From assembly GCA_002839795.1 (NCBI GenBank), contig PGYS01000009.1:1-41913 (forward strand): DNA of 41,913 nt. Reading direction: 5' to 3'. Below are positions 1,417 to 38,037 of this stretch, piece by piece (position 1 is the first letter of the stretch; every line of letters starts with the position of its first letter). The stretch comes from Ignavibacteriae bacterium HGW-Ignavibacteriae-3. GTDB lineage: Bacteria > Bacteroidota > Ignavibacteria > Ignavibacteriales > Melioribacteraceae. Under the pieces are notes generated by a model, which had not been told where the DNA came from, did no database searches, and was given only the letters and a program-made list of their open reading frames with translations. The translations under genes and the position numbers were made by a program.

Positions 1417-2118
1417 ATGAATGATTTAACACAGGAAAACAAGCTTCTCCTGCTGGGTAAATTGACAGCAGGACTTGTTCATGAAATTCGAAATCCGCTG
1501 TCGGCAATTAAATTAAATCTTGATTATATGAAAATGGCGGAGGATGATCTGCCGACCGATCTTAAGGAAATAGTTTCCGAATCTCTCGATTCATTTGAGC
1601 AGGTAAACTTTCTTATTGAGGATGTGCTTGATTTTACGCGCAAGTCCACTGATAAAACACATCAGGTATCCGTGCCGCATATTACCGATAAATGTCTTAA
1701 AATAATTTTAACAACAGCGCGCACTAAAGGCGTTTCAATTGTTAAAGAGATCTCTGAAAACCTCCCGGTACTAAATGTTAATAAAAATAAATTGATGCAG
1801 ATTTTTTTAAATATCCTTAATAACGCAATTGAAGCTTCCAAGGAAAAAAGCAACATTATTATTCGCAGTTTTCTTGAAGAATGCAACGGAGTAACTGCGC
1901 TTGTCTGGCAGGTGCAGGATTTTGGAATCGGAATGAAACCCGAAGATAAAGCAAAAGTTTTGAGCGGATTTTTTACTACGAAAAGTAAAGGACATGGAAT
2001 CGGGCTGGGGGTCTGTAAATCTCTAACCGAAGAGTTAAACGGCGAAATGTTTTTTGATTCCGAATTTGGAATTGGAACAACATTTTCCGTAAAATTTAAC
2101 ATCAATAATAATTTGTAA
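1417..2118 (+). CDS. Soluble sensor histidine kinase, FlgS/NtrB-like
   Basis: A 233-residue kinase that should autophosphorylate on His and pass phosphate to the response regulator encoded 21 nt downstream. The H-box is HEIRNPLSAIK (His22). The ATPase domain shows an N-box (IFLNILNNAIEA), a G1 box (DFGIGM) and FFTTKSKGHGIGLGV. There is no transmembrane segment and essentially no sensor domain before the H-box, so it must sense an intracellular cue or a partner. This matches the cytoplasmic FlgS kinases that monitor the flagellar export apparatus in Campylobacter and Helicobacter. That functional parallel is inferred from architecture and context, so no gene symbol is assigned. No sigma-54 element is seen upstream, so it is probably transcribed by a housekeeping sigma factor. 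Confidence 0.9.
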   Translation: MNDLTQENKLLLLGKLTAGLVHEIRNPLSAIKLNLDYMKMAEDDLPTDLKEIVSESLDSFEQVNFLIEDVLDFTRKSTDKTHQVSVPHITDKCLKIILTTARTKGVSIVKEISENLPVLNVNKNKLMQIFLNILNNAIEASKEKSNIIIRSFLEECNGVTALVWQVQDFGIGMKPEDKAKVLSGFFTTKSKGHGIGLGVCKSLTEELNGEMFFDSEFGIGTTFSVKFNINNNL

Positions 2119-2139
2119 TATTTACCCCAAAGGTTTGAT

Positions 2140-3534
2140 ATGATCAAGGCAAAAATACTTGTTGTGGATGATGACGATCTTGTCTCCGCTTCTCTTAAAA
2201 AAGTTCTGATTAAGCTGGGATATGATGTTGAAACTTGTCTTAATGCCGCCGAAGTGGAGCAGTTTATCACCCAATTCAATCCGGATATAATCCTGCTTGA
2301 CATATATCTCACAACCCACAATGGTATTGATGTTCTGCGGTCGCTAAAGAAAAAATACGCGGGCATTCCCGTAATTATGATAACCGGGTATGCGGACGTT
2401 AAAATTGCGGTTACTGCCATTAAAGCCGGGGCGTACGATTTTCTTCTGAAACCGATTGATCTTGAACAGCTGAATTTTATCCTCGAAAAAGCGATAGAAA
2501 ATCTTAATCTAAAATCCGAGGTTAATAAACTTCATACATTGCTAGAGGATAATCATCTTACAAAAGAGTATTTCGGAAAAAGCTCAAAGATTCAGCGGAT
2601 TGTTTCTTCAGTTGAAAAACTTGCGAGAAGCACGGATACAACAATGCTACTCGAAGGCGAAAGCGGTACAGGAAAAGAAGTTTTTGCCAAATTTATTCAT
2701 CAGCAGAGCCCTCGGTGCAATTCCCCTTTCATAACGATTAACTGCGCTACAATCCCTAAAGACCTGGCGGAAAGTGAATTGTTCGGACACGAAAAAGGCG
2801 CTTTTACTGGCGCATCAACAAAAACAAAACTCGGTAAATTTGAACTTGCCGACGGAGGCACAATTCTTCTAGATGAAATCGGTGAGCTGACACTTGATCT
2901 TCAGGTAAAATTGCTGCGGGTGCTTCAGGAAAGAAAATTCTATAGGTTAGGCGGCGAAAAAGAGGTTACTGTGAATGTTCGCATCCTGGCCGCAACAAAC
3001 AGAAACCTTGAGGAGGAAGTTGGCAGAGGATTTTTCAGGGAGGATTTGTACTATAGGTTAAATGTTGCCAAAATAAATGTCCCTCCGCTCCGCGAGCGAA
3101 AGGAGGATATAATTTATATCGCCTACTCCTTTATTGATGAGTTCTCAAAAAAATTCGGAAAGAATATCGGAGGTATTGATCAAACCGGCCTCGATATTCT
3201 TAAATCCTATTCGTGGAAGGGTAACATAAGAGAATTGCGTAATGTTATGGAAAGGGTGATTCTTCTTGCCGAAGAGAATGAACTTACTGACCATCATTTT
3301 TCATTTCTGGCAGATAAAAAGGACACAGTTGAAAGCGAAGATGAAAAATTTATTCTCCAGGTTCCCTCCAAAGGTGTTAAAATCGATCTGGTCCTGAAAA
3401 CTTTAATTCAGAAAACACTCAAAATCACAAACGGAAACCAGGTAAAAGCCGCAAAAGTGCTTGGACTTTCAAGATCCAAACTCCGATACAGAATGGAACA
3501 GCTTGGCATAGAGGTTACAAAAAATATTAATTAG
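2140..3534 (+). CDS. Sigma-54-dependent response regulator, FlgR/NtrC-like
   Basis: Enhancer-binding activator of RNA polymerase-sigma-54. The receiver domain spans about 1-118, with phospho-acceptor Asp54 in LLDIYL and Lys107 in LLKPI. The AAA+ domain spans about 145-380, with Walker A GESGTGKE (about 173-180), the sigma-54 contact loop GAFTGA (220-225) and Walker B GGTILLDEIGEL (about 239-250). A Fis-type helix-turn-helix is at the C-terminus (KAAKVLGLSRSKLRYRM). All catalytic motifs are intact. Its partner kinase is directly upstream. The next promoter region, 250 nt downstream, holds a dyad plus a -24/-12 element that recurs before flgB and fliL, so this protein is the prime candidate activator of the early flagellar operons. 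The activator role is certain from motifs; the target genes are inferred. Confidence 0.95.
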   Translation: MIKAKILVVDDDDLVSASLKKVLIKLGYDVETCLNAAEVEQFITQFNPDIILLDIYLTTHNGIDVLRSLKKKYAGIPVIMITGYADVKIAVTAIKAGAYDFLLKPIDLEQLNFILEKAIENLNLKSEVNKLHTLLEDNHLTKEYFGKSSKIQRIVSSVEKLARSTDTTMLLEGESGTGKEVFAKFIHQQSPRCNSPFITINCATIPKDLAESELFGHEKGAFTGASTKTKLGKFELADGGTILLDEIGELTLDLQVKLLRVLQERKFYRLGGEKEVTVNVRILAATNRNLEEEVGRGFFREDLYYRLNVAKINVPPLRERKEDIIYIAYSFIDEFSKKFGKNIGGIDQTGLDILKSYSWKGNIRELRNVMERVILLAEENELTDHHFSFLADKKDTVESEDEKFILQVPSKGVKIDLVLKTLIQKTLKITNGNQVKAAKVLGLSRSKLRYRMEQLGIEVTKNIN

Positions 3535-3870: not shown

Positions 3871-5271
3871 ATGAAAATAGACGACGAATTCAAAAAGATT
3901 GAAATATTAAAAAAAGGGGATGCAGAAGCTAAAATAGAATTTTTGAACAGTCTGACATATGAAGAACTTTCAGAAAAATTATGTGAAGCCGTTGCCGAGT
4001 TAATCAATGATGATGATAAAGGTGTCCGCAATAGTGCGGTTTCACTCATCATCAGAAATCGCCATCCAAAGTTTCCGGAATTGGTTGCCAGGTTTATAAA
4101 TTATAATGATTTATCAGTACGGAATCTTGCGGGTGAAATATTAATAGAACTTGGTTCCCTTTCTGTTGAACCTCTGATCATATATCATCATCAGGATGAT
4201 AAAGACACCCTTAAATTTATTATTGACCTTCTCGGTGCTATCAAAGAGCCGCGTTCGTCGCTTTTCATATTAGGAATTTTAAGCAGTTCCGAAAATGATA
4301 ATGTTATTCTTGCCTGCCTGGAAGCCCTGGGAAATATACGATTCGACGGGGCCGTTGATGTGATGATGCTTTTTTATGACCGGAATGATTTGTACAAACC
4401 CACCGTAGTTGAAGCGCTTGGCAAGATAGGTTCAAAAATTGCTTTGGACTTTTTGGTTGAGCGTTTTCCGAATGCGGATGAACTCACACGGTATGCAATT
4501 ATTGAAAGTCTGGGGTCGCTCGGCGATATGAATACGTTTTTCTTTCTGCTTGAACAAATGTCCGAGATTAAAGGCCCAATGGTACTGCCTTTAATAAGCT
4601 CGTTGGCCGCTCTTAAAGAAAAATGTTGTCTGGATATTCCATTCGATGACAGAACGAAAAATATTCTCCTTTACGCAATAGCCGAAGGTTCTCCTGAACA
4701 TAAAAAAATTGCTTTTAATCTAGTTGAGACGTTTGATGATAAAGAAATTCTCAGTGCAAGTTTAAAACTGCTTGGTGAAGATATTGAGCTTGATGAAGTG
4801 ATTCAGTCAAAGATCCTTAAAAACACTGATTTTATCTACTTCGATATTGCCCGGTTGATAAACCGGAATGTTCCAAACCTCAAAAATATACTTGAACTCT
4901 TCCGCGTTACCATTAACCACATTAAAGAATTTAATGTACCGGTCGGGGTTTCAGTCATGGAGATCAGGAATATCGTACATGCAATAAGCGGGTTACTGGA
5001 GCATCATGATGAAGAGATAAGGAAGACGGCAATGGAAATTCTATTCGAACTGGATAAAGAAAGCGCTCTTCTCTTCATTGATGTTATCTCGGGTGATGAA
5101 AACAACTGGAACCGGTTAAGACTTTTAGAAATCATTGAGAACATACCGGGTTCAGCATTCGATTCAGTAATCCTTAAATTTTTGGATGATTCCGATGAAA
5201 TGATTCGTGAAAAAGCGGCCCAAACTGTCAGGATCAAAAAAATTAGTCACTCATCAACTAATGTGAACTGA
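3871..5271 (+). CDS. HEAT-repeat protein leading the chemotaxis operon
   Basis: A 466-residue, probably cytosolic protein with no signal peptide or membrane segment. It is built of helical repeats of the HEAT type with the typical D-x-x-V/I-R pattern: DDDKGVRNSAVSLI (about 47-60), NDLSVRNLAGEILIELG (about 78-94), HHDEEIRKTAMEILFELD near 385-400 and DSDEMIREKAAQTV near the C-terminus. The middle holds further poorly conserved repeats. HEAT solenoids usually act as protein-binding scaffolds, and the partner here is unknown. It is the first gene of the operon, with cheR starting 4 nt after its stop, so a role in assembling or positioning chemotaxis or motor proteins is plausible. No catalytic motif is visible. 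Confidence 0.8.
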   Translation: MKIDDEFKKIEILKKGDAEAKIEFLNSLTYEELSEKLCEAVAELINDDDKGVRNSAVSLIIRNRHPKFPELVARFINYNDLSVRNLAGEILIELGSLSVEPLIIYHHQDDKDTLKFIIDLLGAIKEPRSSLFILGILSSSENDNVILACLEALGNIRFDGAVDVMMLFYDRNDLYKPTVVEALGKIGSKIALDFLVERFPNADELTRYAIIESLGSLGDMNTFFFLLEQMSEIKGPMVLPLISSLAALKEKCCLDIPFDDRTKNILLYAIAEGSPEHKKIAFNLVETFDDKEILSASLKLLGEDIELDEVIQSKILKNTDFIYFDIARLINRNVPNLKNILELFRVTINHIKEFNVPVGVSVMEIRNIVHAISGLLEHHDEEIRKTAMEILFELDKESALLFIDVISGDENNWNRLRLLEIIENIPGSAFDSVILKFLDDSDEMIREKAAQTVRIKKISHSSTNVN

Positions 5272-27627: not shown

Positions 27628-28713
27628 ATGGCCGAGAAAGACGGACAAGAAAAAAGTGAGGAGCCTACCTCTAAGAAGCTCTCCGACGCGAGAGACAAAG
27701 GAGAGGTTGCTAAAAGTACCGAGATAAATTCACTTGCTGTATTCGGCAGCGGGTTGATGATTATCTATCTTACGAAGGGAATGCTTAGCGAGAAAATTGC
27801 GGGATTTGCGATTGACATTTTCAGCTCGCTTGAAAAACTAGAACTCAATAAAACAATCATTCAGACTTATGCTCTTAAATGGGTGCTCTTCTTATTGACC
27901 GTATTGGCCCCGGTTATGTTAGGGATTGTTGTTGTAGCGCTTGCAGCAAATATTGCACAGGTCGGATTCGCGTTCAAAACCAAAGTGTTTATTCCCAAGC
28001 TAAGCCGCTTTAATCCCCTTGCCGGAATAAAAAGAATTTTCTTTTCCTCCCGCTCCGTAATTGAAGTAGGAAAATCCGTTGCCAAATTATTTGCAATAGG
28101 CCTGTTCGCGTATTTTATTATCTCGAAATTAGTTGAGGATACAACATCACTCATCGAGCTCAGCATTGAGGAAACTATCCGGTTTATGATTGATGCCGCA
28201 TTCTCAATGATTATTAAAATTGTGCTTTTCTTCGTGGCTATAGCGGCAATCGATTTTACATTCCAGAAGATAAAATTCAAAAAAGACATGATGATGTCGA
28301 AGCATGAAGTTAAAGAAGAGTGGAGACAGTCCGAAGGCGACCCGCTGATTAAATCAAAAATCCGCCGGCAAATGCTATCAATGGCGCGAAAGAGAATGAT
28401 GAAAGATGTTCCTACCGCCGATGTGGTAGTTACAAATCCTACTCACTTTGCAATAGCAATTAAATATGAAATGAATAAAGATAGGGCTCCTAAAGTTGTG
28501 GCTAAAGGAATGGATGAATTGGCCCAGCGTATCAAGAAAATTGCGATAGAAAATAATGTTCCTCTTCATGAAGACAAGGAACTTGCGCGTGCGCTTTATA
28601 AAGCGACCGAAGTAGGGGACGAAATTCCGACAAAATTATTTAAAGCAGTTGCCCAGATTCTGGCATACATTTTTCAGCTTAAAAAGATGAAGAAGAAAAG
28701 GAGCATAGTATAA
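27628..28713 (+). CDS. flhB: Flagellar export specificity switch protein FlhB
   Basis: A 361-residue protein that controls the switch from rod/hook to filament export together with FliK. The N-terminus, GQEKSEEPTSKKLSDARDKGEVAKS, is typical; four membrane segments follow, then the cytosolic domain with the autocleavage site NPTH (270-273) in VVVTNPTHFAIAIKY. The cleavage motif is intact, so a normal switch is expected. Confidence 0.97.
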   Translation: MAEKDGQEKSEEPTSKKLSDARDKGEVAKSTEINSLAVFGSGLMIIYLTKGMLSEKIAGFAIDIFSSLEKLELNKTIIQTYALKWVLFLLTVLAPVMLGIVVVALAANIAQVGFAFKTKVFIPKLSRFNPLAGIKRIFFSSRSVIEVGKSVAKLFAIGLFAYFIISKLVEDTTSLIELSIEETIRFMIDAAFSMIIKIVLFFVAIAAIDFTFQKIKFKKDMMMSKHEVKEEWRQSEGDPLIKSKIRRQMLSMARKRMMKDVPTADVVVTNPTHFAIAIKYEMNKDRAPKVVAKGMDELAQRIKKIAIENNVPLHEDKELARALYKATEVGDEIPTKLFKAVAQILAYIFQLKKMKKKRSIV

Positions 28714-28717
28714 GGTG

Positions 28718-30772
28718 ATGAAATCGTTCGGTAGAAACAGCGATATTTTCCTGGCGTTCGGACTCATTATGATGCTCGGTCTGATGCTTATACCGCTTCC
28801 GGCGTCAATGCTTGATTTTCTTTTGGCTACCAATATAACTCTTTCTGTCCTTGTGCTTATCGTATCATTGTATATCCAATCCCCGCTGGATATTTCGGTA
28901 TTCCCCGGATTGCTCCTTGTTACTACACTATTCCGCCTGGGATTAAATATCAGCTCAACCCGCCTTATACTTATCGATGCTTACGCGGGACGGGTAATTG
29001 AATCGTTCGGATCGTTTGTTGTAAGCGGTAATTACGTTGTAGGATTTATCATTTTTATAATTCTTGTTGTTATACAATTTATAGTTATAGTAAAAGGATC
29101 GGGAAGAATTTCTGAAGTCGCCGCGCGGTTTACTCTTGACGCGATGCCCGGAAAACAGATGGCTATTGATGCCGATCTCAACACCGGTCTTATCTCTGAA
29201 TCGGACGCGCGCAAACGCAGAGAAATGGTGGGCAGGGAAGCGGAATTTTACGGAGCAATGGACGGTGCGAGCAAGTTCGTAAAAGGCGATGCCGTTGCGG
29301 GATTGATCATTAACGGAATTAATATTATTGCCGGTTTCATTATAGGTGTGGCGCAGAAAGGATTATCATTTAATGATGCTCTTCATACCTATACAATTCT
29401 TACAATAGGTGACGGACTGGTTTCTCAGATCCCCGCTATAATAATATCAACTGCCGCAGGTCTTGTTGTAACAAGAAGCGCCACGGGCACGTCATTAGAT
29501 TTCCAGATGAAATCGCAATTGTTCTCCAATCCGCGCGTGCTTGGAACCGTAAGCGGTGCAATCTTCATGTTTGCATTAATTCCGGGAATGCCTGCCGTGC
29601 CGTTTATGATATTAAGCATCATACTTGGGACGAGTTCCTATGTTTCCAAGAAAAACAAATTGACTGCCGCAAATATTGTAAGTGCTGAGGCTGAAGTTTT
29701 ATTGCCTGAACCGAAGGAAGAAAAAGTGGAGCAGTATTTACAGGTCGATCCAATCGAAGTCGAAATCGGCTATGGATTAATCAGTCTTGTTGATGAAAAA
29801 CAGGGCGGAAATTTATTCCAAAAAATATCCTCTACCAGAAAACTTATAGCGCTTGAATACGGCGTATTAATTCCGCCTGTTAGAGTGCGGGATAATCTGC
29901 AGCTCTCTCCTAATGAGTATATTATAAAAATAAAAGGAATCATTGTTGCAAGTAATGAAATATACCCGGACAGACTTATGGCAATGAATCCCGGAAATAT
30001 TGATGAAGAATTGACCGGCATTCAGACTACCGATCCGGCGTTCGGACTTCAGAGTTTCTGGGTTACTCAGGAAGAAAAGGAAAAAGCGGAAATGCTTGGC
30101 TATACGGTTGTGGACAGTATTTCTGTCTTATCCACACATCTTCAGGAAATGCTCAAGAAAAATTTTGATAAAATACTTTCACGCCAGGAAGTAAAACAGC
30201 TATTGGAAAATATTAAAAAAGAATATCCCGCTGTTGTTGAAGAGATAAATCCGGAGATCCTGAATCTTGGAATTATCCAGAAAGTATTGCAAAATCTGCT
30301 AAAGGAAAATATCCCTATTAAAGATTTCGTACAGATTCTGGAAGCTTTAATTGATTACTCCAAGACAACCAAAAACATTGATGTTCTAACCGAGTATGTG
30401 CGACACACAATAGGAAGCACAATTGGCGCTATCTATCGCGATGCAAATGGAATTATTCACGCCACCGCTTTAAGTGAAAATCTTGAAGCGGCGATTAGCC
30501 GATCTCTGCAGGCGCAAAAGGACAGCGTTGTTGCACTTGGTTTGAATCCAACGGTTTTGCGCGAATTGAATGTTCAGCTGCAGCAGATGTCAGAAAATTT
30601 CAACAAGCTCGGATATCCTCCGATATTAATTACTTCGGCTACAATCCGTCCTTATTTCTATCGTTTAGTTAACAGCAGTTTTCCTGAATTGGCAGTGCTC
30701 TCATATTCAGAATTACCGGCAAATATTGAATTAGAATTTCTTGGAAAGTTAGAGGTGCAAAATGCAAATTAA
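28718..30772 (+). CDS. flhA: Flagellar export gate protein FlhA
   Basis: Export engine of about 684 residues that docks substrate-chaperone complexes. Eight hydrophobic segments fill the first 330 residues. The FHIPEP-type cytosolic loop has GSGRISEVAARFTLDAMPGKQMAIDADLN and GLISESDARKRREMVGREAEFYGAMDGASKFVKGDA, read in pieces. The C-terminal domain includes VVEEINPEILNLGIIQKVLQNLL. The ATG at 28718 is chosen; a GTG one codon upstream (28715) is the alternative. Its 3' end overlaps flhF by 11 nt. Confidence 0.97.
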   Translation: MKSFGRNSDIFLAFGLIMMLGLMLIPLPASMLDFLLATNITLSVLVLIVSLYIQSPLDISVFPGLLLVTTLFRLGLNISSTRLILIDAYAGRVIESFGSFVVSGNYVVGFIIFIILVVIQFIVIVKGSGRISEVAARFTLDAMPGKQMAIDADLNTGLISESDARKRREMVGREAEFYGAMDGASKFVKGDAVAGLIINGINIIAGFIIGVAQKGLSFNDALHTYTILTIGDGLVSQIPAIIISTAAGLVVTRSATGTSLDFQMKSQLFSNPRVLGTVSGAIFMFALIPGMPAVPFMILSIILGTSSYVSKKNKLTAANIVSAEAEVLLPEPKEEKVEQYLQVDPIEVEIGYGLISLVDEKQGGNLFQKISSTRKLIALEYGVLIPPVRVRDNLQLSPNEYIIKIKGIIVASNEIYPDRLMAMNPGNIDEELTGIQTTDPAFGLQSFWVTQEEKEKAEMLGYTVVDSISVLSTHLQEMLKKNFDKILSRQEVKQLLENIKKEYPAVVEEINPEILNLGIIQKVLQNLLKENIPIKDFVQILEALIDYSKTTKNIDVLTEYVRHTIGSTIGAIYRDANGIIHATALSENLEAAISRSLQAQKDSVVALGLNPTVLRELNVQLQQMSENFNKLGYPPILITSATIRPYFYRLVNSSFPELAVLSYSELPANIELEFLGKLEVQNAN

Positions 30773-31880
30773 AAAGTACATCGCTCCCACTCTTAAAGAA
30801 GCTACGGTGCAAATGAAGAATGAGCTGGGAGAAGAAGCGATAATTCTCGGAACGCGAGTGCTGGAATCGGACAAGCGTTACAATATGAAAAAGATGTACG
30901 AAATTACTGCGGGAGTAGACCAGCCTTCCAAACCTTCGCCTTCAAACGGGACGGCGTCGAATAAAAGCGGTTCTAATAATTACGAATCTGAACTTGACGC
31001 ACTCACAAAAAAAATATTTTCGACGAATGATTCTCGGACAGGAACAGAAGAGAAAAAAAACAAAAATTACAGAGCTTCGTCATCTGTAAAAACTTTTGAT
31101 AAAGAAATAAGCGAGATTGCTGAAACTCTTCAAATGCACGAAGTTCAGAAGAGTATTGTTACAAATCTTGTTACACATCTGTCGAACTCATCCGGATTTG
31201 TAGATGAATCCGGTCTTCAAAATTATCTGCTCTCAAGCATGGCCTCAATGATTCCAACCACTAATTTTAAAGTGAGCAAACGTAAAACCCATAAAATAGC
31301 TCTGGTCGGGCCTACGGGAGTAGGAAAAACAACATGCATCGCAAAACTTGCGGTAATATCCAAGATCATCCACAAATTAAATGTTGGATTAATTTCGATA
31401 GATACTTACAGGCTTGGCGCTATAGATCAATTAAGAATATTCTCTGAGATAAGTGATATAGAAATGGCCGTTGCTTACGAACCGGAGGAAATTCCTTCTC
31501 TGATAAAAAAGTTTAAAGATAAAGATCTGATATTTATCGATACTGTCGGAAGGAGCCAGAAGAGCAGGAAAAGTCTGGAGTCCATAGAAAAACATCTTCA
31601 GGCGGCCCAGGTTGACGAAACGGTTCTGGTTGTAAGTGCGACAAGTTCAACCCGTACTCTTAATGATGTTGCCGAAAAATTCAAGAATACGAAGTACAGC
31701 TCTGTGATATTTTCAAAAGTAGATGAGGCGGTTTCCTACGGAGGAATTATGAATCTGGCAGTCACTCATAATATTCCCGTTATGTTCCTGACAAACGGAC
31801 AGGTAATTCCCGATGATATCGTTTCGGTGAATCCATCATTTCTGGCAAATTTGGTATTTACGGGCAAGTTATACAAATGA
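30762..31880 (+). CDS. flhF: Flagellar placement GTPase FlhF
   Basis: SRP-type GTPase of 372 residues that sets flagellar site and number. The N-terminal YVAPTLKEAxxQMKNELGEEAIIL-like segment (MQIKKYIAPTLKEATVQMKN) and a disordered linker (about 50-110) precede the NG domain. G1 is VGPTGVGKTTCIAKLA (about 182-197), then SIDTYRLGAIDQLRIFSEI and FIDTVGRSQKSRKSLE. It overlaps flhG by ATGA. The pair suggests few flagella at a controlled, often polar, place. Confidence 0.96.
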   Translation: MQIKKYIAPTLKEATVQMKNELGEEAIILGTRVLESDKRYNMKKMYEITAGVDQPSKPSPSNGTASNKSGSNNYESELDALTKKIFSTNDSRTGTEEKKNKNYRASSSVKTFDKEISEIAETLQMHEVQKSIVTNLVTHLSNSSGFVDESGLQNYLLSSMASMIPTTNFKVSKRKTHKIALVGPTGVGKTTCIAKLAVISKIIHKLNVGLISIDTYRLGAIDQLRIFSEISDIEMAVAYEPEEIPSLIKKFKDKDLIFIDTVGRSQKSRKSLESIEKHLQAAQVDETVLVVSATSSTRTLNDVAEKFKNTKYSSVIFSKVDEAVSYGGIMNLAVTHNIPVMFLTNGQVIPDDIVSVNPSFLANLVFTGKLYK

Positions 31881-32710
31881 ACACTCAGGCGTCAAGACTC
31901 ATAGAGCTTAACAAGCTTGCTGATCTTGGGAATAAATCTCCGTCATCTAAAATTATTTCCGTTTGTTCCGGCAAGGGCGGCACCGGAAAAACATTTTTCT
32001 CGGCAAATTTCGCTAACCAGCTGTCCAAATTAAATCAGAGAGTTTTACTGATTGACCTCGATCTCAATTTTTCAAATCTGAACGTACTCCTGAATCACAC
32101 TTCCACAAGAACAATAGCCAATTTTTTTGAGCAGTCGGAATTGCTTGATGATATAATTTTCAGCTATTCATCCAATCTTGACCTGATATTCGGCGATTCC
32201 GGAAGAAGTGATTATCCCCGTGTCAGCAGGGAGATAATTGACTATCTGTTTATCTCAATTCAAAAAATTCAGCACCGGTATGATTTTATTATAATGGATT
32301 CTTCGGCCGGTGCCGACAATCTCGTTATCCATCAACTTAAAAAATCCGACTACAATGTGATAGTAACATCCCCGGAACCTACGGCCGTTATGGATTCCTA
32401 TGTTGTTGTTAAACTTCTGGTTGAAAATGACTCCTCAGCAAAAAAATATGTTGTTGTTAACAAATGCATAGACCCGGAAGAAGGTGAGAATGCGTTCATG
32501 AATCTTTCGATAGCAGTAAATCATTTTCTCAAAAAGAAGATTGATCTGCTTGGTTTTATAAGTCAGGACACTTCAGCTCACAAATCAATTCTTAATCAGG
32601 AACTCCTTTTGAATTTCGATAATGATGCAATAGCCGCAGATGAAATTTACCGTCTGGCTGAACAATTCATTACTATCGCCCAGATGGCTAATAATAACCA
32701 GCCCGGATAA
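31877..32710 (+). CDS. flhG: MinD-like flagellar number ATPase FlhG
   Basis: A 277-residue ParA/MinD-type ATPase (FlhG/FleN/YlxH) that restrains flagellar number and stimulates FlhF. The deviant P-loop GKGGTGKT (32-39) is present, with LLIDLDLNFSNLNVLL, IIMDSSAGADN and TSPEPTAVMDSYVVVKLL, the last typical of FlhG. The N-terminus carries RLIELNKLADL, similar to the FlhF-activating segment (Q-A-x-x-L) in MNTQASRLIEL. Its last codons overlap a possible activator dyad for the following promoter. Confidence 0.95.
   Translation: MNTQASRLIELNKLADLGNKSPSSKIISVCSGKGGTGKTFFSANFANQLSKLNQRVLLIDLDLNFSNLNVLLNHTSTRTIANFFEQSELLDDIIFSYSSNLDLIFGDSGRSDYPRVSREIIDYLFISIQKIQHRYDFIIMDSSAGADNLVIHQLKKSDYNVIVTSPEPTAVMDSYVVVKLLVENDSSAKKYVVVNKCIDPEEGENAFMNLSIAVNHFLKKKIDLLGFISQDTSAHKSILNQELLLNFDNDAIAADEIYRLAEQFITIAQMANNNQPG
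32684..32701 (+). promoter_or_regulatory. Possible activator-binding dyad for the fliA operon
   Basis: ATGGCTAATAATAACCAG matches 14 of 18 positions of TTGGCTAATATTAGCCAA and overlaps the last codons of flhG. Its core starts at 32690, 93 nt before the -24 GG at 32783, which is 31 nt more than at the other three promoters (about three helical turns, so the same DNA face). Because it lies in coding DNA (Met-Ala-Asn-Asn-Asn-Gln), chance cannot be excluded. A direct repeat CAGCCCGG (32699-32706, 32712-32719) lies next to it. Confidence 0.35.
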
Positions 32711-32824: not shown

Positions 32825-33061
32825 ATGAATAAAATAATCTTTCAAACCGGTCTGTTAGTTTTTTTCTTTTCGGTAATCTACTTTACCCAGAAGGGCCTCC
32901 CGCTTGAAAAAATTCTTCTCAATTCATTCGTCGTTTTTATCATACTTACCTCAATGCTCAGCATCATAGTAATAGGAATTATTAAAGCCATCAACAATAA
33001 CTCGATAAATAAATTAAGCGACTATTCAGAGAACTTAGCGGGAAAATCGAAAAATGAGTAA
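32825..33061 (+). CDS. Small two-helix membrane protein ahead of fliA
   Basis: A 78-residue protein with two hydrophobic segments (about 6-22 and 31-54) and a polar C-terminal tail of about 20 residues (NKLSDYSENLAGKSKNE). I do not recognise it. It is the first gene after a sigma-54-like promoter, and its 3' end overlaps the fliA start by 8 nt, so translation of the two is probably coupled. A role tied to sigma factor control or the flagellar membrane apparatus is possible but unproven. Confidence 0.7.
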   Translation: MNKIIFQTGLLVFFFSVIYFTQKGLPLEKILLNSFVVFIILTSMLSIIVIGIIKAINNNSINKLSDYSENLAGKSKNE

Positions 33062-33686
33062 TGCAATACTTTGGTCATCGTACAAAGAAAATCCCACAAC
33101 GGATTTAAAGAAACAGATTGTCGTTACATATCTGAATCTTGTTCATTACGTAATTCATAAAACCAATCTCAATCAAAACGGAATTCTGGACAGAAGGGAT
33201 TTCTTTCAATTTGGTATAGAGGGATTGAGTGAAGCAATAGATCGGTTTGATCCTGATTACGGTACAAAGTTCGAAACATATGCCATACAGAGGATTCGCG
33301 GCAAAATATATGATGAACTAAGAAAATATACTGACAAGCACGAACATTCTGTTGAAGGAGTAAGCGGTACAAATTACTCCTTGTCTAGTATCTCTTTAAA
33401 CCAAACAATAGGTGACGAGGATGGTATGCAATACCAAGAAGTAATTCCCAGTCTGGCCGAAAAACCGGACGCTATTTTGGAAAAAAAGGATCTTAAACAG
33501 AAACTTATCGATATCATGAAAGAACTCGGTGAAAGAGAGCGCACGATTTTAAGTCTCTATTACTATGAAGAATTGAATTACAAAGAGATAGCTCAGGTGC
33601 TCAATATTACCGTCTCCCGTGTATCGCAGATCCATTCTAAAATAATAAGTGCACTAAAAATTAGGCTGGCAGAATATAATGCTTGA
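33054..33686 (+). CDS. fliA: Flagellar sigma factor FliA (sigma-28), apparently lacking sigma-3
   Basis: Sigma factor expected to direct late flagellar genes. Region 2 is intact: DFFQFGIEGLSEAIDRFDPDYGTKFETYAIQRIRGKIYDELRKY (about 49-92, in pieces). Region 4 is intact: LGERERTILSLYYYEELNYKEIAQVLNITVSRVSQIHSK (about 158-196). Between them only about 50 residues remain. The conserved sigma-3 segment that follows DELR in other FliA proteins (DWVPRS...) is absent, replaced by a short polar stretch, TDKHEHSVEGVSGTNYSLSS. Total length is 210 against about 240 in enterics. It overlaps genes on both sides by 8 nt. No FlgM gene is seen. Confidence 0.92.
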   Translation: MSNAILWSSYKENPTTDLKKQIVVTYLNLVHYVIHKTNLNQNGILDRRDFFQFGIEGLSEAIDRFDPDYGTKFETYAIQRIRGKIYDELRKYTDKHEHSVEGVSGTNYSLSSISLNQTIGDEDGMQYQEVIPSLAEKPDAILEKKDLKQKLIDIMKELGERERTILSLYYYEELNYKEIAQVLNITVSRVSQIHSKIISALKIRLAEYNA

Positions 33687-34551
33687 AGTTAAACCTCCTG
33701 AATTACGGGAACATATTAGAAGAAAACTCCAGAATATCGGAAATCTTCCTTCGCTGCCTCAGGTTATTACCGAAGTATCTATGATGCTCGACGATGAAAG
33801 AACAAACGCAAATGACTTGTGCAAAGTTATTTCCAGGGATCAGGGAATAGTGGCCAAATTGCTTGCTGTGGCAAATTCCCCCCTCTATGGTTTACCAAGA
33901 AGAGTTTCGACGGTGGAATTCGCGATAATAATAATAGGATTCGAGCACATCAAAAATATACTGGTAGCTCTGTCACTCGTTGAAGCATTCAAGACAAGAA
34001 ATTCTTCCGATTGGAATCAGAATGTTTATTGGACTCATTCCTTATTAACTGCGACAGCGGCAAAAAGAATCGCCGACGATCTCCGGTATCCGAAATCCGG
34101 TGAGGTTTTTACCGCAGGGCTGCTTCATGATCTTGGTCTTGCGGTCCTTCAGCGGTTTTTAAATTCGGACTTTAAAAAAATTATTCTTCTGAAAGAAAAA
34201 GAAGATATAACATTCCTGGCGGCGGAAGAAAAAATCCTCGGCTTTACTCACCAGGATATAGGCGAATTTTTACTGGAAAAATGGAATTTCCCTCCCTACA
34301 TAAACGAAGCGGTTCTTTGTCATCATAATCCTTCTTTATCAGAGAAAGGGCAGGTCCTTGCGTCACTTATACATTTAGCGGATTATATGACCCACAGACT
34401 TTCTATCGGGTCATTTGAATGGGACAACAGTTATGAATTAGACGAAAATATCGTCGACATTCTTGGCTTTGGAAGTTTTCAGTATCTGGAAGAGTTTATA
34501 AACGGCTATGAACAATTATTTAAAAGTCATCTTGAATCAATAAATCTATAG
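33679..34551 (+). CDS. HDOD domain signalling protein, first copy
   Basis: A 290-residue soluble protein of the HDOD family, HD-related output domains often tied to two-component and c-di-GMP signalling. The core begins LPSLPQVITEV, then SRDQGIVAKLLAVANSPLYGLPRRV. HD-type residues are retained: His120 (WTHS), His150-Asp151 (GLLHDLG), His191 (FTHQDIG), His215-His216 and Asp235 (HLADYM). No output DNA-binding or GGDEF domain is attached. Its start overlaps the fliA 3' end by 8 nt, and a paralogue follows 6 nt later. Function in the flagellar regulon is inferred only from position. Confidence 0.9.
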   Translation: MLEVKPPELREHIRRKLQNIGNLPSLPQVITEVSMMLDDERTNANDLCKVISRDQGIVAKLLAVANSPLYGLPRRVSTVEFAIIIIGFEHIKNILVALSLVEAFKTRNSSDWNQNVYWTHSLLTATAAKRIADDLRYPKSGEVFTAGLLHDLGLAVLQRFLNSDFKKIILLKEKEDITFLAAEEKILGFTHQDIGEFLLEKWNFPPYINEAVLCHHNPSLSEKGQVLASLIHLADYMTHRLSIGSFEWDNSYELDENIVDILGFGSFQYLEEFINGYEQLFKSHLESINL

Positions 34552-34557
34552 GATGTC

Positions 34558-35439
34558 ATGGAAACTATATCAATCGATTATTCGAAGAAACGGGAAAGAA
34601 CAGAATTGATTCTTAAGAAAGTGAATACACTTTCTCCAATTCCCAAAGTATTATCAGAAGTACTGGAACTGCTTAACGACCAGCAGACCAGTCCCCATAT
34701 GCTTGCAAAAATTATTTCAAAAGATCAGGGAGTTGTGCTTAAACTTCTTACGATAGCCAACTCGCCGTTCTACGGATTATCAAAGAGAGTGGCATCTATC
34801 GAATTTGCGATCATGATTCTTGGATATGATGAGATCAGGAATATTGTCTCCGCGCTTTCCCTGATGGAATCTATGAAGAACAAGAGCGATCAGTATCTAG
34901 ATCAGAAAAATTTCTGGATGCATTCATATATAACAGCAACGATCTCTAAAAAGATTGCTATGGATTTCGGGCTTGAAAAAAGCGGTGAAGCTTTTCTGGC
35001 CGGCCTGCTCCACGACCTCGGTATTTCCGTTGTTCATAGATTTATGCACTCGGATTTTGTGCACATTTGCGAATTGATCCAAAGCGGTGTGCCGTTTCTT
35101 GAGGCCGAAATACAGGTGCTGGGTCTCGATCATCAGGCAATTGGAGAAATGCTGCTGAAAAACTGGAACATCCCGGAATTAATTTGCGGCATCGTTAAAA
35201 GTCATCACACTCCAAATCAGTCTGCAAATGCGCCGGTTCTTTCTTCGGTAGTGCATCTGGCAGATTACATGACTCAGAAATTACAAATGGGAGATCTGAA
35301 GTGGGACGCTTCTATCGATCTTGATGAACACGTCTTCGCCAATCTGCATATCAAGGATCTTTCCGAACTGGGCAAATTTATTGACAGCTACAAAGAACCA
35401 TTGGTAGGTCAACTTGAGTCATTGAGGTATTTAATTTGA
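34558..35439 (+). CDS. HDOD domain signalling protein, second copy
   Basis: A 293-residue paralogue of the preceding protein, alike over its whole length: LSPIPKVLSEVLELLND, SKDQGVVLKLLTIANSPFYGLSKRV, GLLHDLG and HLADYM are in the same places. The same HD residues are kept (His122, His152-Asp153, His192, His216-His217, Asp236). It looks like an old tandem duplication, because identity is moderate. The TTG start of the next gene overlaps its stop (TTGA), so it is probably translated together with the degenerate kinase. Confidence 0.9.
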   Translation: METISIDYSKKRERTELILKKVNTLSPIPKVLSEVLELLNDQQTSPHMLAKIISKDQGVVLKLLTIANSPFYGLSKRVASIEFAIMILGYDEIRNIVSALSLMESMKNKSDQYLDQKNFWMHSYITATISKKIAMDFGLEKSGEAFLAGLLHDLGISVVHRFMHSDFVHICELIQSGVPFLEAEIQVLGLDHQAIGEMLLKNWNIPELICGIVKSHHTPNQSANAPVLSSVVHLADYMTQKLQMGDLKWDASIDLDEHVFANLHIKDLSELGKFIDSYKEPLVGQLESLRYLI

Positions 35440-36746
35440 GACTGATAAAAGAAAATACATCCGAATTCGAATCGTTCCACAAGTCGCTTCAGTATTTTAC
35501 AAAAAAATCTAAAGCGCAGGGCGACCTGAAACTGATCAGTTTTGAAAATCACAAAAACAATTTTGACCAGCTGGAAAAGTATTCTTTCTTTGCTCAGAAT
35601 TTGTATTCATTTCAGAAGAAAATTCAGAGTGTTGAAAGTGTGAGGGAATTGAATTCGATTTTTCAGGATTTCGTAACACGGATTTTGTCCTCAAAAGAAG
35701 TGGAAATATTTCTGTTTAATGATTCCCGAAGCAATCTGATTCCGCTTAACACGTCCGCAACCCAGCAGCATATGCATGTAGTTAATAAAGCATACAAGGA
35801 CGGAATTCTCGATTGGATATTCGAAACAAAAAAAGCAACAATAATTCCGGATCTAAATCTCCTTACTTCAAACGGATCCAAACTGAACCAGATTATTTTT
35901 CCGGTTTATGACAGAAAAGCCACTTACGGACTGCTTTCCGTGCTAACCTCCGCGGCAAGAGTGCAGGAAGATTCACTTGAAAACCAGTCAATTCAGATTC
36001 TTCTCAGCATGATCATTCCCATGATAATAACACTGAGACAGAAACAATCAATCAATAAGCTTTACCACGAGCTCCAGGTTTATCAATCAAAGATGAATAA
36101 CGATTTTGACATCTATGCTATCGGCGAGCTTGCAGAAGGGATTCTTGAAGAGATTGGTGAACCGCTTCAGGTTATTCTGAGCTATACTAACATGGTTGAG
36201 AACGAATACAGTGTTGATAATGAAGTAACGGATAAAATTAAGGAGCAGGTTAAAAAAATACATGAACTCACAAACCGTCTGGTAAAATTTTCGGGATTGA
36301 ATAAACCCCGCGCAGGCAGAAGCCAGCCCTGTGAAATAAACAAGGTTGTGCGTGAATTCAGAAATGTTATAAACGCCACGCTGAATAATCTTGGTATTGA
36401 ATGCGATTTGGACCTGGAAGAAAATATGCCTCCTGTTCTTAGCGATCCCAATGACATCAAGCAGATATTAACGAGTGTTTTCTCAATTATTAAAAGCGAA
36501 GCCAAAAAAGGCGGAGCTATTGTAATTCAGTCAAAGTATGTCAGAGAAAAAGTAGTCCTTTCCATCTTTACAACAGAACAGCTTCCCGTTCTTTCCGATT
36601 CAAAAAATATTAATTCGAATGTGACTGTAAAACTTATTAAGGAATTGATGAACAAAAATGAAGGCAAAGCGGAATTCAATTCGCTGCCGCTTAAAGGCGC
36701 AATTATCCATTTGAGTTTCCCGATGAAAAGGAGATTGAATTTATGA
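35436..36746 (+). CDS. Degenerate histidine kinase with GAF-like domain
   Basis: A 436-residue soluble protein. Residues about 60-205 resemble a GAF domain (VRELNSIFQDFVTRILSSKEVEIFLF; IFPVYDRKATYGLLSVL). The dimerisation helix then reads GELAEGILEEIGEPLQVILSY; in active kinases the same place reads G-x-A-H-E-I-N-N-P-L, so the phospho-acceptor His is Glu238. The ATPase-like part (about 300-436) lacks the N-box Asn residues (QILTSVFSIIKSEA), the DxGxG box and the GxGL box. It cannot be a normal kinase and may act as a scaffold or allosteric partner of the HDOD proteins. The start is TTG, overlapping the previous stop. Confidence 0.82.
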   Translation: MRLIKENTSEFESFHKSLQYFTKKSKAQGDLKLISFENHKNNFDQLEKYSFFAQNLYSFQKKIQSVESVRELNSIFQDFVTRILSSKEVEIFLFNDSRSNLIPLNTSATQQHMHVVNKAYKDGILDWIFETKKATIIPDLNLLTSNGSKLNQIIFPVYDRKATYGLLSVLTSAARVQEDSLENQSIQILLSMIIPMIITLRQKQSINKLYHELQVYQSKMNNDFDIYAIGELAEGILEEIGEPLQVILSYTNMVENEYSVDNEVTDKIKEQVKKIHELTNRLVKFSGLNKPRAGRSQPCEINKVVREFRNVINATLNNLGIECDLDLEENMPPVLSDPNDIKQILTSVFSIIKSEAKKGGAIVIQSKYVREKVVLSIFTTEQLPVLSDSKNINSNVTVKLIKELMNKNEGKAEFNSLPLKGAIIHLSFPMKRRLNL

Positions 36747-37315
36747 AACGGTTTCTTCTCTTCTTCCTTGTTGCCGCATCATTAATCAGCGGCCAGAATA
36801 TTTCAGACGATTCAAGCGGATCCGTTGCCGCCGCAGACAGCGTGAATATCGGCGATATTGTTAGAGAACAAATTGAACGCGCTAAAATGAGGCAATCAGC
36901 TGATATCGTTCCCGCTGCAGTACGCGAGGCAAATCTCGATATAAAAATCGAACCGGTTAAGATTGAAAAAAAACAGGCGCTCAGTTTTTATTATTCTCTG
37001 CCTCTTCATTATCAGATCTTTTTTGCCGGGTCAATTTTCGTGCTGTTTGTACTGGCCGTCAGGAGAACTGTTGCGCTAATAAAGAGACAGGCCTCCCGGG
37101 GTCTTAAAAATAAAATAGCACTGCTTAGGGAAGAAAAAGTGATTGTAAGGGCTAATTCAAAACTTGCGGCAATACGCAAAAAACTTAGAGGCAGGAGGCA
37201 GATTTATGATGATTCCGAAACGCAGTTATCTAAAGCTGCAAAGAATTTGAAAATTGCAAAAGGTGAATTGCTTCTTGCATCAAGATTGAAATTATATGAA
37301 TTAGGAAAAACGTAA
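36743..37315 (+). CDS. Unknown membrane protein upstream of flgF
   Basis: A 190-residue protein I do not recognise. It has a signal peptide (about 1-17, MKRFLLFFLVAASLISG), a polar segment of about 70 residues, one membrane segment (about 90-106, YQIFFAGSIFVLFVLAV), and a highly basic helical C-terminal half likely to form a coiled coil (KNKIALLREEKVIVRANSKLAAIRKKLRGR in pieces). The expected topology puts the basic coil in the cytosol and the N-terminal part in the periplasm. It overlaps the upstream gene by 4 nt and precedes flgF by 11 nt. Link to rod or motor assembly is inferred from position. Confidence 0.7.
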   Translation: MKRFLLFFLVAASLISGQNISDDSSGSVAAADSVNIGDIVREQIERAKMRQSADIVPAAVREANLDIKIEPVKIEKKQALSFYYSLPLHYQIFFAGSIFVLFVLAVRRTVALIKRQASRGLKNKIALLREEKVIVRANSKLAAIRKKLRGRRQIYDDSETQLSKAAKNLKIAKGELLLASRLKLYELGKT

Positions 37316-37326
37316 GAGAGGATGAT

Positions 37327-38037
37327 ATGATAAAAGGTATTTATACTGCCGGAAGAAGTTTGGTGCACAGAACAAAAAATATAGATGTGATTGCGAATAA
37401 CCTGGCGAATATCAGCACTACGGGATACAAGAGAGAAATCCCCTTCTCGGAAATCATTAATAGTGTGGGCGAAATCGGGACTAAAAAACTTTCCAGTCAA
37501 CTGCAGGGAGAAATAATCCAGACTTCCAATCCTCTTGATCTTGCATTGGACGGTCAAGGATTTTTTGCAACAAAGAATGAAGACGGAATGCTCGAATTAA
37601 CGCGCGACGGAAGGTTTAAAGTATCGGATGACGGTTATCTGATAGACAATAATAAAAGAAGAGTCTTAGGAAAAAACGGCGCGATCTCGATGGAAGAATT
37701 GATGCAGACTAAAGACGCACATATTCTTGTAACAAAGTCGGGTGAAATTAAAGTTGGCAATAAGACCATTGATCAGATACTTATTCTTGATGTTTACGAT
37801 GCAAGCGCGCTTCAGCGTTCAGGCGGGTCGAACTTTTTAATTGATGGCGAGCAGTATTTCGCGGCTAATGAAGATAATTACTCAGTCTCGCAGGGTTTTC
37901 TTGAGGGGGCAAATACAAATCCCATGATAGAAATGCAGGCGATGATTCAACTTAATAAAGAATATGAATCAACAACTAAAATTATGGCTGCGCTGGATAA
38001 ATCACTCGAGCAGGCAAATGAAATTGGAAAAGTATAA
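37327..38037 (+). CDS. flgF: Flagellar proximal rod protein FlgF
   Basis: A 236-residue rod protein. The N-terminal hook/rod motif is NIDVIANNLANISTTGYKRE; LDLALDGQGFFATK and LTRDGRFKVSDDGYLID are typical of the FlgF/FlgG group; the C-terminus has SQGFLEGANTNPMIEMQAMIQLNKEYE. It is shorter than the FlgG copy downstream and precedes it, so FlgF is the natural assignment. The start has GAGAGGATGAT directly upstream. Confidence 0.93.
   Translation: MIKGIYTAGRSLVHRTKNIDVIANNLANISTTGYKREIPFSEIINSVGEIGTKKLSSQLQGEIIQTSNPLDLALDGQGFFATKNEDGMLELTRDGRFKVSDDGYLIDNNKRRVLGKNGAISMEELMQTKDAHILVTKSGEIKVGNKTIDQILILDVYDASALQRSGGSNFLIDGEQYFAANEDNYSVSQGFLEGANTNPMIEMQAMIQLNKEYESTTKIMAALDKSLEQANEIGKV

Follow-up and report, generated by a model that had tools for sequence, protein, structure and literature searches.

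The stretch of DNA analysed here (the window) comprises 41,913 nucleotides of contig PGYS01000009.1 from Ignavibacteriae bacterium HGW-Ignavibacteriae-3, one contig of a 243-contig genome, and carries the greater part of a gene cluster for flagella and chemotaxis. From position 27628 the genes follow one another in the order flhB, flhA, flhF, flhG, fliA, HDOD1, HDOD2, PHK, a small predicted membrane protein, flgF, flgG, flgA, flgH and flgI, in which HDOD1 and HDOD2 encode two HDOD proteins and PHK, the subject of this study, a pseudo-histidine kinase that we infer to be long fixed and to work without phosphoryl chemistry. The genes from fliA through the small-protein gene overlap or almost abut, as one tight operon: the start of HDOD1 lies within the 3' end of fliA, the gap between HDOD1 and HDOD2 is 6 nt, the TTG start codon of PHK shares 4 nt with the HDOD2 stop (TTGA), and the gene 3' of PHK overlaps it by a further 4 nt. 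Inspection of the reading frames thus agrees with the initial annotation of this DNA on the coordinates of PHK and its overlap with the second HDOD gene. The features discussed below, all on the + strand, are the following; the names FlgS-like and FlgR-like were given by context.

30762 to 31880, + strand: flhF, a reading frame of the window, with synteny to flhA/flhG in relatives
31877 to 32710, + strand: flhG, a polar-flagellum MinD-type ATPase by its MinD/ParA-family matches and its position 3' of flhF
33054 to 33686, + strand: fliA, sigma-28, by family profile matches
33679 to 34551, + strand: HDOD1, 290 residues, PF08668 with E 4.6e-60, in a conserved operon position
34558 to 35439, + strand: HDOD2, 293 residues, PF08668 with E 3.9e-53; relatives with known structure include 3hc1 and 1vqr
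35436 to 36746, + strand: PHK, 436 residues, with N-terminal peptide, GAF-like domain, signalling helix, DHp and CA domains
35436 to 35500, + strand: conserved N-terminal peptide of PHK, MRLIKEN..[YF]ESF.KSLQ, of low model confidence
36743 to 37315, + strand: predicted membrane protein of small size, flanked by PHK and flgF, with no family match
37327 to 38037, + strand: flgF, the downstream border of the module, a reading frame of the window placed by synteny
1417 to 2118, + strand: FlgS-like histidine kinase, 233 residues, intact and sensorless (HisKA and HATPase_c only)
2140 to 3534, + strand: FlgR-type sigma-54-dependent response regulator, 464 residues

Against Pfam, PHK gives only a sub-threshold HisKA match (E 1e-3), and against the NCBIfam models of AtoS/ZraS-type kinases it scores E 1e-11 to 1e-17; its closest named relatives belong to the Melioribacteraceae and include Stygiobacter electus (64% identity). 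Pfam calls no GAF domain in the window copy, calls one in sister kinases and calls it weakly in one orthologue. The AlphaFold model, built on 26 sequences with a mean pLDDT of 76.7 and a pTM of 0.43, so that the placement of the domains is unsure, contains a GAF-like domain, a long signalling helix, a DHp hairpin and a CA (catalytic and ATP-binding) domain, in keeping with the GAF-like, DHp-like and ATPase-like parts noticed in the initial annotation. The DHp and CA fold of active histidine kinases is present in the model, with CA matches in the Protein Data Bank (PDB) at Z 17-19; that to the CA domain of DivL has a Z of 18.8 and 1.9 Å over 136 residues.

The residues that this fold would need for catalysis are gone. 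Residue 238 of the window protein is a Glu, and a His occupies the aligned site in all of the 26 intact relatives; in the N box, N347 is replaced by Ser and N351 by Ile. Alignment with these relatives therefore bears out the reported lack of the acceptor His, the N-box Asn residues and the G boxes. The same condition extends over the order, a group of relatives of Melioribacter, as tallied on 33 sequences chosen for the phylogenetic tree and a set of 40, out of 106. Glu is the usual residue at position 238 in orthologues (26/33), and the single copy with a His (1/33, from genome G018; such handles are our own numbers for genomes, loci and families) has no ATP site either. The second Asn of the N box is lost in 33/33 copies, the first is still found in 28/33, not in that of the window, the Asp and Gly of the G1 box are replaced, and the F/G2 stretch has disappeared with the deletion of 14 ATP-lid columns, so that the ATP site is absent in every member of the order read. 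By every sequence criterion PHK would thus be a kinase without catalysis. On the other hand, fixation of Q214, Y216, K219, N222, D223 and Q365 is seen in the dead copies but not in the intact ones, so that PHK has acquired constraints while shedding others. A kinase fold, lost catalytic residues and maintenance by selection place it among pseudo-histidine kinases in the broad sense; the features of a DivL orthologue, namely a Tyr at the acceptor site and H, N, G1, F and G2 boxes retained apart from that, are not found in it.

The origin of the dead form can be traced at the same locus. Seven families elsewhere in the class (f4, f5, f8, f10, f60, f63 and f65) have an intact GAF-HisKA-HATPase kinase in the same slot, after fliA and the HDOD genes, and therefore the dead form is the derived one. 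In the tree all 33 PHKs of the order fall in one clade (SH-aLRT 100). Sequence comparison thus shows that the ancestor of PHK was an intact GAF-sensor kinase in the same fliA operon and that both the phospho-acceptor and the ATP site were lost before the order diversified. Dead GAF kinases also occur in the fliA-HDOD operon of family f11 (loci L101, L103, L179 and L180), where the His is replaced by Lys, Lys, Asn or Ser, and three of these copies are nested in a different, otherwise intact clade. A common origin of the dead kinases of f11 and of the order is disfavoured by the approximately unbiased (AU) test (p 0.021, a moderate value for a group named post hoc after the tree). Since the two losses are separate, catalysis has been lost at least twice at this one locus, as far as can be read from the sequences. 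In genome G522 (family f59) the GAF-kinase copy keeps the His and lacks the N and G boxes; this copy and that of L103 have long branches, and their placement in the tree is unsure. Another f11 genome, G325 (L186), carries fliA-HDOD with no GAF kinase behind it.

The distribution of PHK was surveyed in 164 genomes of the order, many of them drafts, in which flagellation was judged by FlhA alone. PHK was found in 106 genomes and FlhA in 109; both occur in 105, neither in 54 and only one in five (overlap counted by hand from two lists, in numbers uncorrected for phylogeny). PHK without FlhA is confined to G360, and FlhA without PHK to G029 and G516, both incomplete, G517, in which FlhA is a broken fragment, and G042. 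Several genera mix flagellated and non-flagellated species, so flagella have probably been lost repeatedly in the order, and PHK along with them. The arrangement fliA-HDOD-HDOD-PHK is near-universal among the loci read, with a single HDOD gene in a few. Strong HDOD matches are restricted to flagellated genomes, non-flagellated ones giving weak HD hits, and G042 is the sole flagellated genome without any. The idea that a dedicated module resides in the fliA operon is therefore sustained, since the gene set is kept with fliA/flgF across the order, where conserved co-occurrence was found in other genomes as well, and is lost with flagella, and since Glu prevails at position 238. The initial annotation is borne out in part, the outputs that it proposed (flagellar number, reversals or a switch to sessile life) and the ligand being hypothetical. 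The retention of PHK almost wherever flagella are retained suggests that it now serves flagellar control by sensing and docking.

Such a pattern leaves little room for the opposite explanation, that PHK is merely what is left of a former kinase, in decay or neutral, which the intact orthologues of the sister families might suggest. These intact forms occur only outside the order, all of the members read within it being dead, fixed in one clade, and none of the 106 genomes with PHK has an internal stop codon in the gene. Furthermore, the ratio of non-synonymous to synonymous substitution rates (dN/dS) in close pairs is 0.035-0.050 for PHK and 0.019-0.054 for its CA part, and 0.024-0.035 for FlhA. 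On the evidence of these ratios, the dead DHp and CA domains are under strong purifying selection, and residues have been gained as well as lost; decay, considered likewise in the initial annotation, was ruled out by clade-wide fixation and low dN/dS, and we give it a negligible chance.

The candidate partners of PHK include the HDOD proteins. Their assignment in the initial annotation holds, with Pfam scores of 202.9 and 180.3 bits for HDOD1 and HDOD2 against a cut-off of 22.9. A set of residues resembling metal ligands (H120, H150-D151, H191, H215 and D235 in HDOD1) is invariant in 76/76 sequences of the operon HDODs, so these proteins may still bind metal; a GYP motif was not seen by eye in the two HDODs of the window, for which no HD-GYP model was run. 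The rate of PHK evolution covaries most strongly with that of HDOD2 (0.73), followed by FlgR (0.66), FlgF (0.53), FliA (0.52), FlgS (0.42) and FlgH (0.02), although this is a weak test in which the permutations ignore phylogeny. The N-terminal peptide of PHK is found in 50 of 51 copies of the order, including five that the regular expression missed and that were read by eye as variants; the exception is G360, a genome without HDOD. The peptide is a candidate HDOD-docking motif and is probably disordered.

The second group of candidates is found at 1417-3534, where an intact kinase adjoins a sigma-54-dependent flagellar regulator, the arrangement typical of FlgS/FleS-type kinases, which PHK does not have. 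The initial annotation did not link this pair to PHK, of which they are the likeliest targets. In 26/26 loci of the order read, FlgS is a bare kinase of 229-264 residues. Elsewhere it is REC-PAS-HK (f4, f5, f8, f10 and f60) or PAS-HK (f6, f11, f20, f63 and f65), a domain make-up established by Pfam on examples and by length and similarity for the remainder, in a pattern uncorrected for phylogeny. In this order FlgS is bare and PHK is free of catalysis, and thus sensor and catalysis would lie on separate proteins. The proposal that the GAF kinase targets the receiver (REC) domain of REC-PAS-FlgS and that the two were lost jointly was rejected as not general, because in f63 and f65 an intact GAF kinase coexists with an FlgS devoid of REC.

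A third candidate is a REC-HisKA protein, conserved in the flagellar region, that keeps the His (GHKINNP and variants), has no ATPase domain and looks like a stand-alone phosphotransfer protein. It was located at the following positions.

L208, 9085 to 9735: REC-HisKA protein
L209, 9693 to 10370: REC-HisKA protein
L210, 9065 to 9736: REC-HisKA protein
L212, 10078 to 10740: REC-HisKA protein
L115, 8426 to 9103: REC-HisKA protein
L168, 2502 to 3224: REC-HisKA protein

The gene is found downstream in the flagellar region of G016, G018, G034 and G045, and much closer to PHK in rearranged clusters. In G360 (L115 3027-10261), a genome without FlhA and HDOD, a single run encodes FlgS, FlgR, an FlhF-like protein, FliA, PHK, REC-HisKA and a further histidine kinase, with fliA and PHK overlapping and REC-HisKA directly after PHK; it forms an island of flagellar regulators in a genome that apparently has no flagellum. 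In G522 (L168 2502-10143), FlgR, a hybrid kinase, FliA, HDOD, the GAF kinase, a receiver and REC-HisKA lie together, the last separated from the GAF kinase by one single-receiver gene. These two runs and the loci with a downstream REC-HisKA gene indicate, therefore, that these regulators hang together, and that flagellar regulators stay together even with the structural genes rearranged or gone.

This proximity fits the view that PHK is mainly a reverse sensor of the DivL type, which would detect a phosphorylated receiver (FlgR, CheY or REC-DHp) and signal to the HDODs rather than control FlgS. PHK keeps the scaffold of DHp and CA, its CA domain being structurally close to that of DivL, and DivL binds DivK~P with no kinase activity (PMC4211667). 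DivL, however, keeps the N, G1, F and G2 boxes that PHK has lost, and several receivers exist as possible partners; we regard this role as unlikely.

The position of PHK near fliA can also be read as that of a direct sigma-28 regulator, whose dead GHKL-fold CA domain would bind FliA in a complex that the HDODs release or stabilise. SpoIIAB and RsbW, both GHKL proteins, bind sigma factors related to FliA. Only the HDOD genes separate fliA from PHK, the two genes overlap in the HDOD-less G360, and no FlgM-like gene was seen next to flgN in the G018 and G034 clusters, in a comparison that did not extend to a genome-wide search for FlgM. However, SpoIIAB and RsbW retain ATP binding, the covariation of PHK with FliA is not above that with FlgF, and such a role has no need of the DHp and GAF parts, so that we consider it improbable. 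We give slightly less credence still to a function in flagellar number or polar placement, exerted via FlhF/FlhG and not through transcription: flhF and flhG belong to the same operon as PHK and an FlhF-like protein accompanies PHK in G360, but the latter genome has no FlhA and flagellum placement cannot be selected there.

The explanation that we favour, at about even confidence, is that PHK, with no catalysis of its own, serves as a GAF sensor and adaptor that docks on the HDODs and governs the programme running from FlgS/FlgR to FliA. Its role, ligand, contacts and output are here predicted from sequence. The GAF domain would read a small ligand, and the N-terminal peptide would dock on HDOD2 or on both HDODs. 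The DHp and CA surfaces would make contact with a further two-component protein from the flagellar cascade, the sensorless FlgS-like kinase or FlgR being the likeliest and REC-HisKA also possible; ligand binding and HDOD docking would alter this contact and so gate the transcription of flagellar genes that depend on sigma-54 and, next, on FliA. Sensing would reside on one protein and catalysis on another, as with DivL/CckA or RetS/GacS.

Several observations weigh against this explanation. The covariation of PHK with the structural protein FlgF is no lower than that with FliA; the dead kinase and the sensorless FlgS are in effect one evolutionary event in the order; f11 combines a dead kinase with an FlgS that retains its PAS domain, and f63 and f65 an intact GAF kinase with an FlgS that has only the PAS domain, which shows that neither loss strictly entails the other. 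In G042 (L105 6720-11981), where the flagellar cluster ends after flhG and fliA, both HDODs and PHK are absent from this place, FlgS/FlgR and FlhA are retained without PHK and HDODs. Flagellar kinases of the FlgS type read basal-body assembly, and that of C. jejuni, with no recognised sensor domain beyond a coiled coil, senses the basal body directly (PMC7064773).

A more elaborate, and doubtful, form of the proposal is a split flagellar sensor kinase, in which catalysis would reside in the sensorless FlgS and sensing in the dead GAF kinase, loaded by the HDODs through the N-terminal peptide, with phosphotransfer possibly via the REC-DHp protein. Since kinase activity was lost at least twice at this locus, the dead state itself would then be an adaptive design.

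As for the neighbouring sequences, the gene for the small membrane protein evolves fast (dN/dS 0.20-0.28) and is found in the same place in most relatives; in family f2 (L055-L057) the interval from PHK to flgF contains a short reading frame that is FlhB-like. Positions 3871-5271, flanked by FlgR and the chemotaxis genes, encode a 466-residue protein that by eye resembles HEAT-type repeats. No good match to a sigma-54 promoter was found 5' of fliA in the window, where one 9/11 site lies on the opposite strand inside HDOD1, and the window contains no tRNAs or Rfam RNAs.

No published description of this module was found, nor, in the library searched, one for HDOD with FlhG and histidine kinases or HDOD with Ignavibacteria, and the three papers there that combine HDOD, flagellar and FliA are all on Pseudomonas. 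Only a handful of pseudo-histidine kinases are understood, and in DivL the N and G boxes, both lost in PHK, persist. An order-wide dead kinase, with intact orthologues in the same slot and a second independent loss, opens the function acquired after catalysis to direct comparison, and HDOD proteins, whose mechanism is unsettled, are placed in a defined set of partners in flagellar control.

The closest known systems include DivL of Caulobacter. Like PHK, it resembles a kinase, has the His replaced and keeps its sensor domains, and its CA fold is nearly superposable on the PHK model; it regulates although it has no kinase activity, and senses a regulator in its phosphorylated form (PMC4211667). 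Unlike PHK, it has the N, G1, F and G2 boxes, PAS domains and a Tyr at the acceptor site, whereas PHK has lost the ATP site and lid, carries a GAF-like domain and a Glu, and sits with HDODs in a flagellar operon. RetS, a kinase-like sensor whose kinase region is among the structural matches of the PHK model, is a hybrid kinase that inhibits GacS by heterodimerisation and also removes phosphate from it (PMC12189002); PHK has neither acceptor His nor ATP site, and would heterodimerise by analogy. In a ChrS variant of Corynebacterium, loss of the CA domain converted the kinase into a non-catalytic protein that usefully partners a paralogous system (PMC9491836), by laboratory evolution, while the PHK state is old and fixed over an order. 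In the FlgS/FlgR, FlrB/FlrC and FleS/FleR systems (PMC7064773), of which the window has such a pair, one kinase both senses and catalyses, in contrast to the bare FlgS-like kinase of the window, accompanied by a dead GAF kinase in the fliA operon. Finally, the HDOD proteins SadB and GsmR regulate flagella, and SadB binds c-di-GMP (PMC6543031). They share with the operon HDODs a domain tied to flagellar gene control; SadB, however, has a YbaK-like domain, whereas the operon HDODs stand alone, keep the full set of HD residues resembling metal ligands and are paired with a dead kinase.

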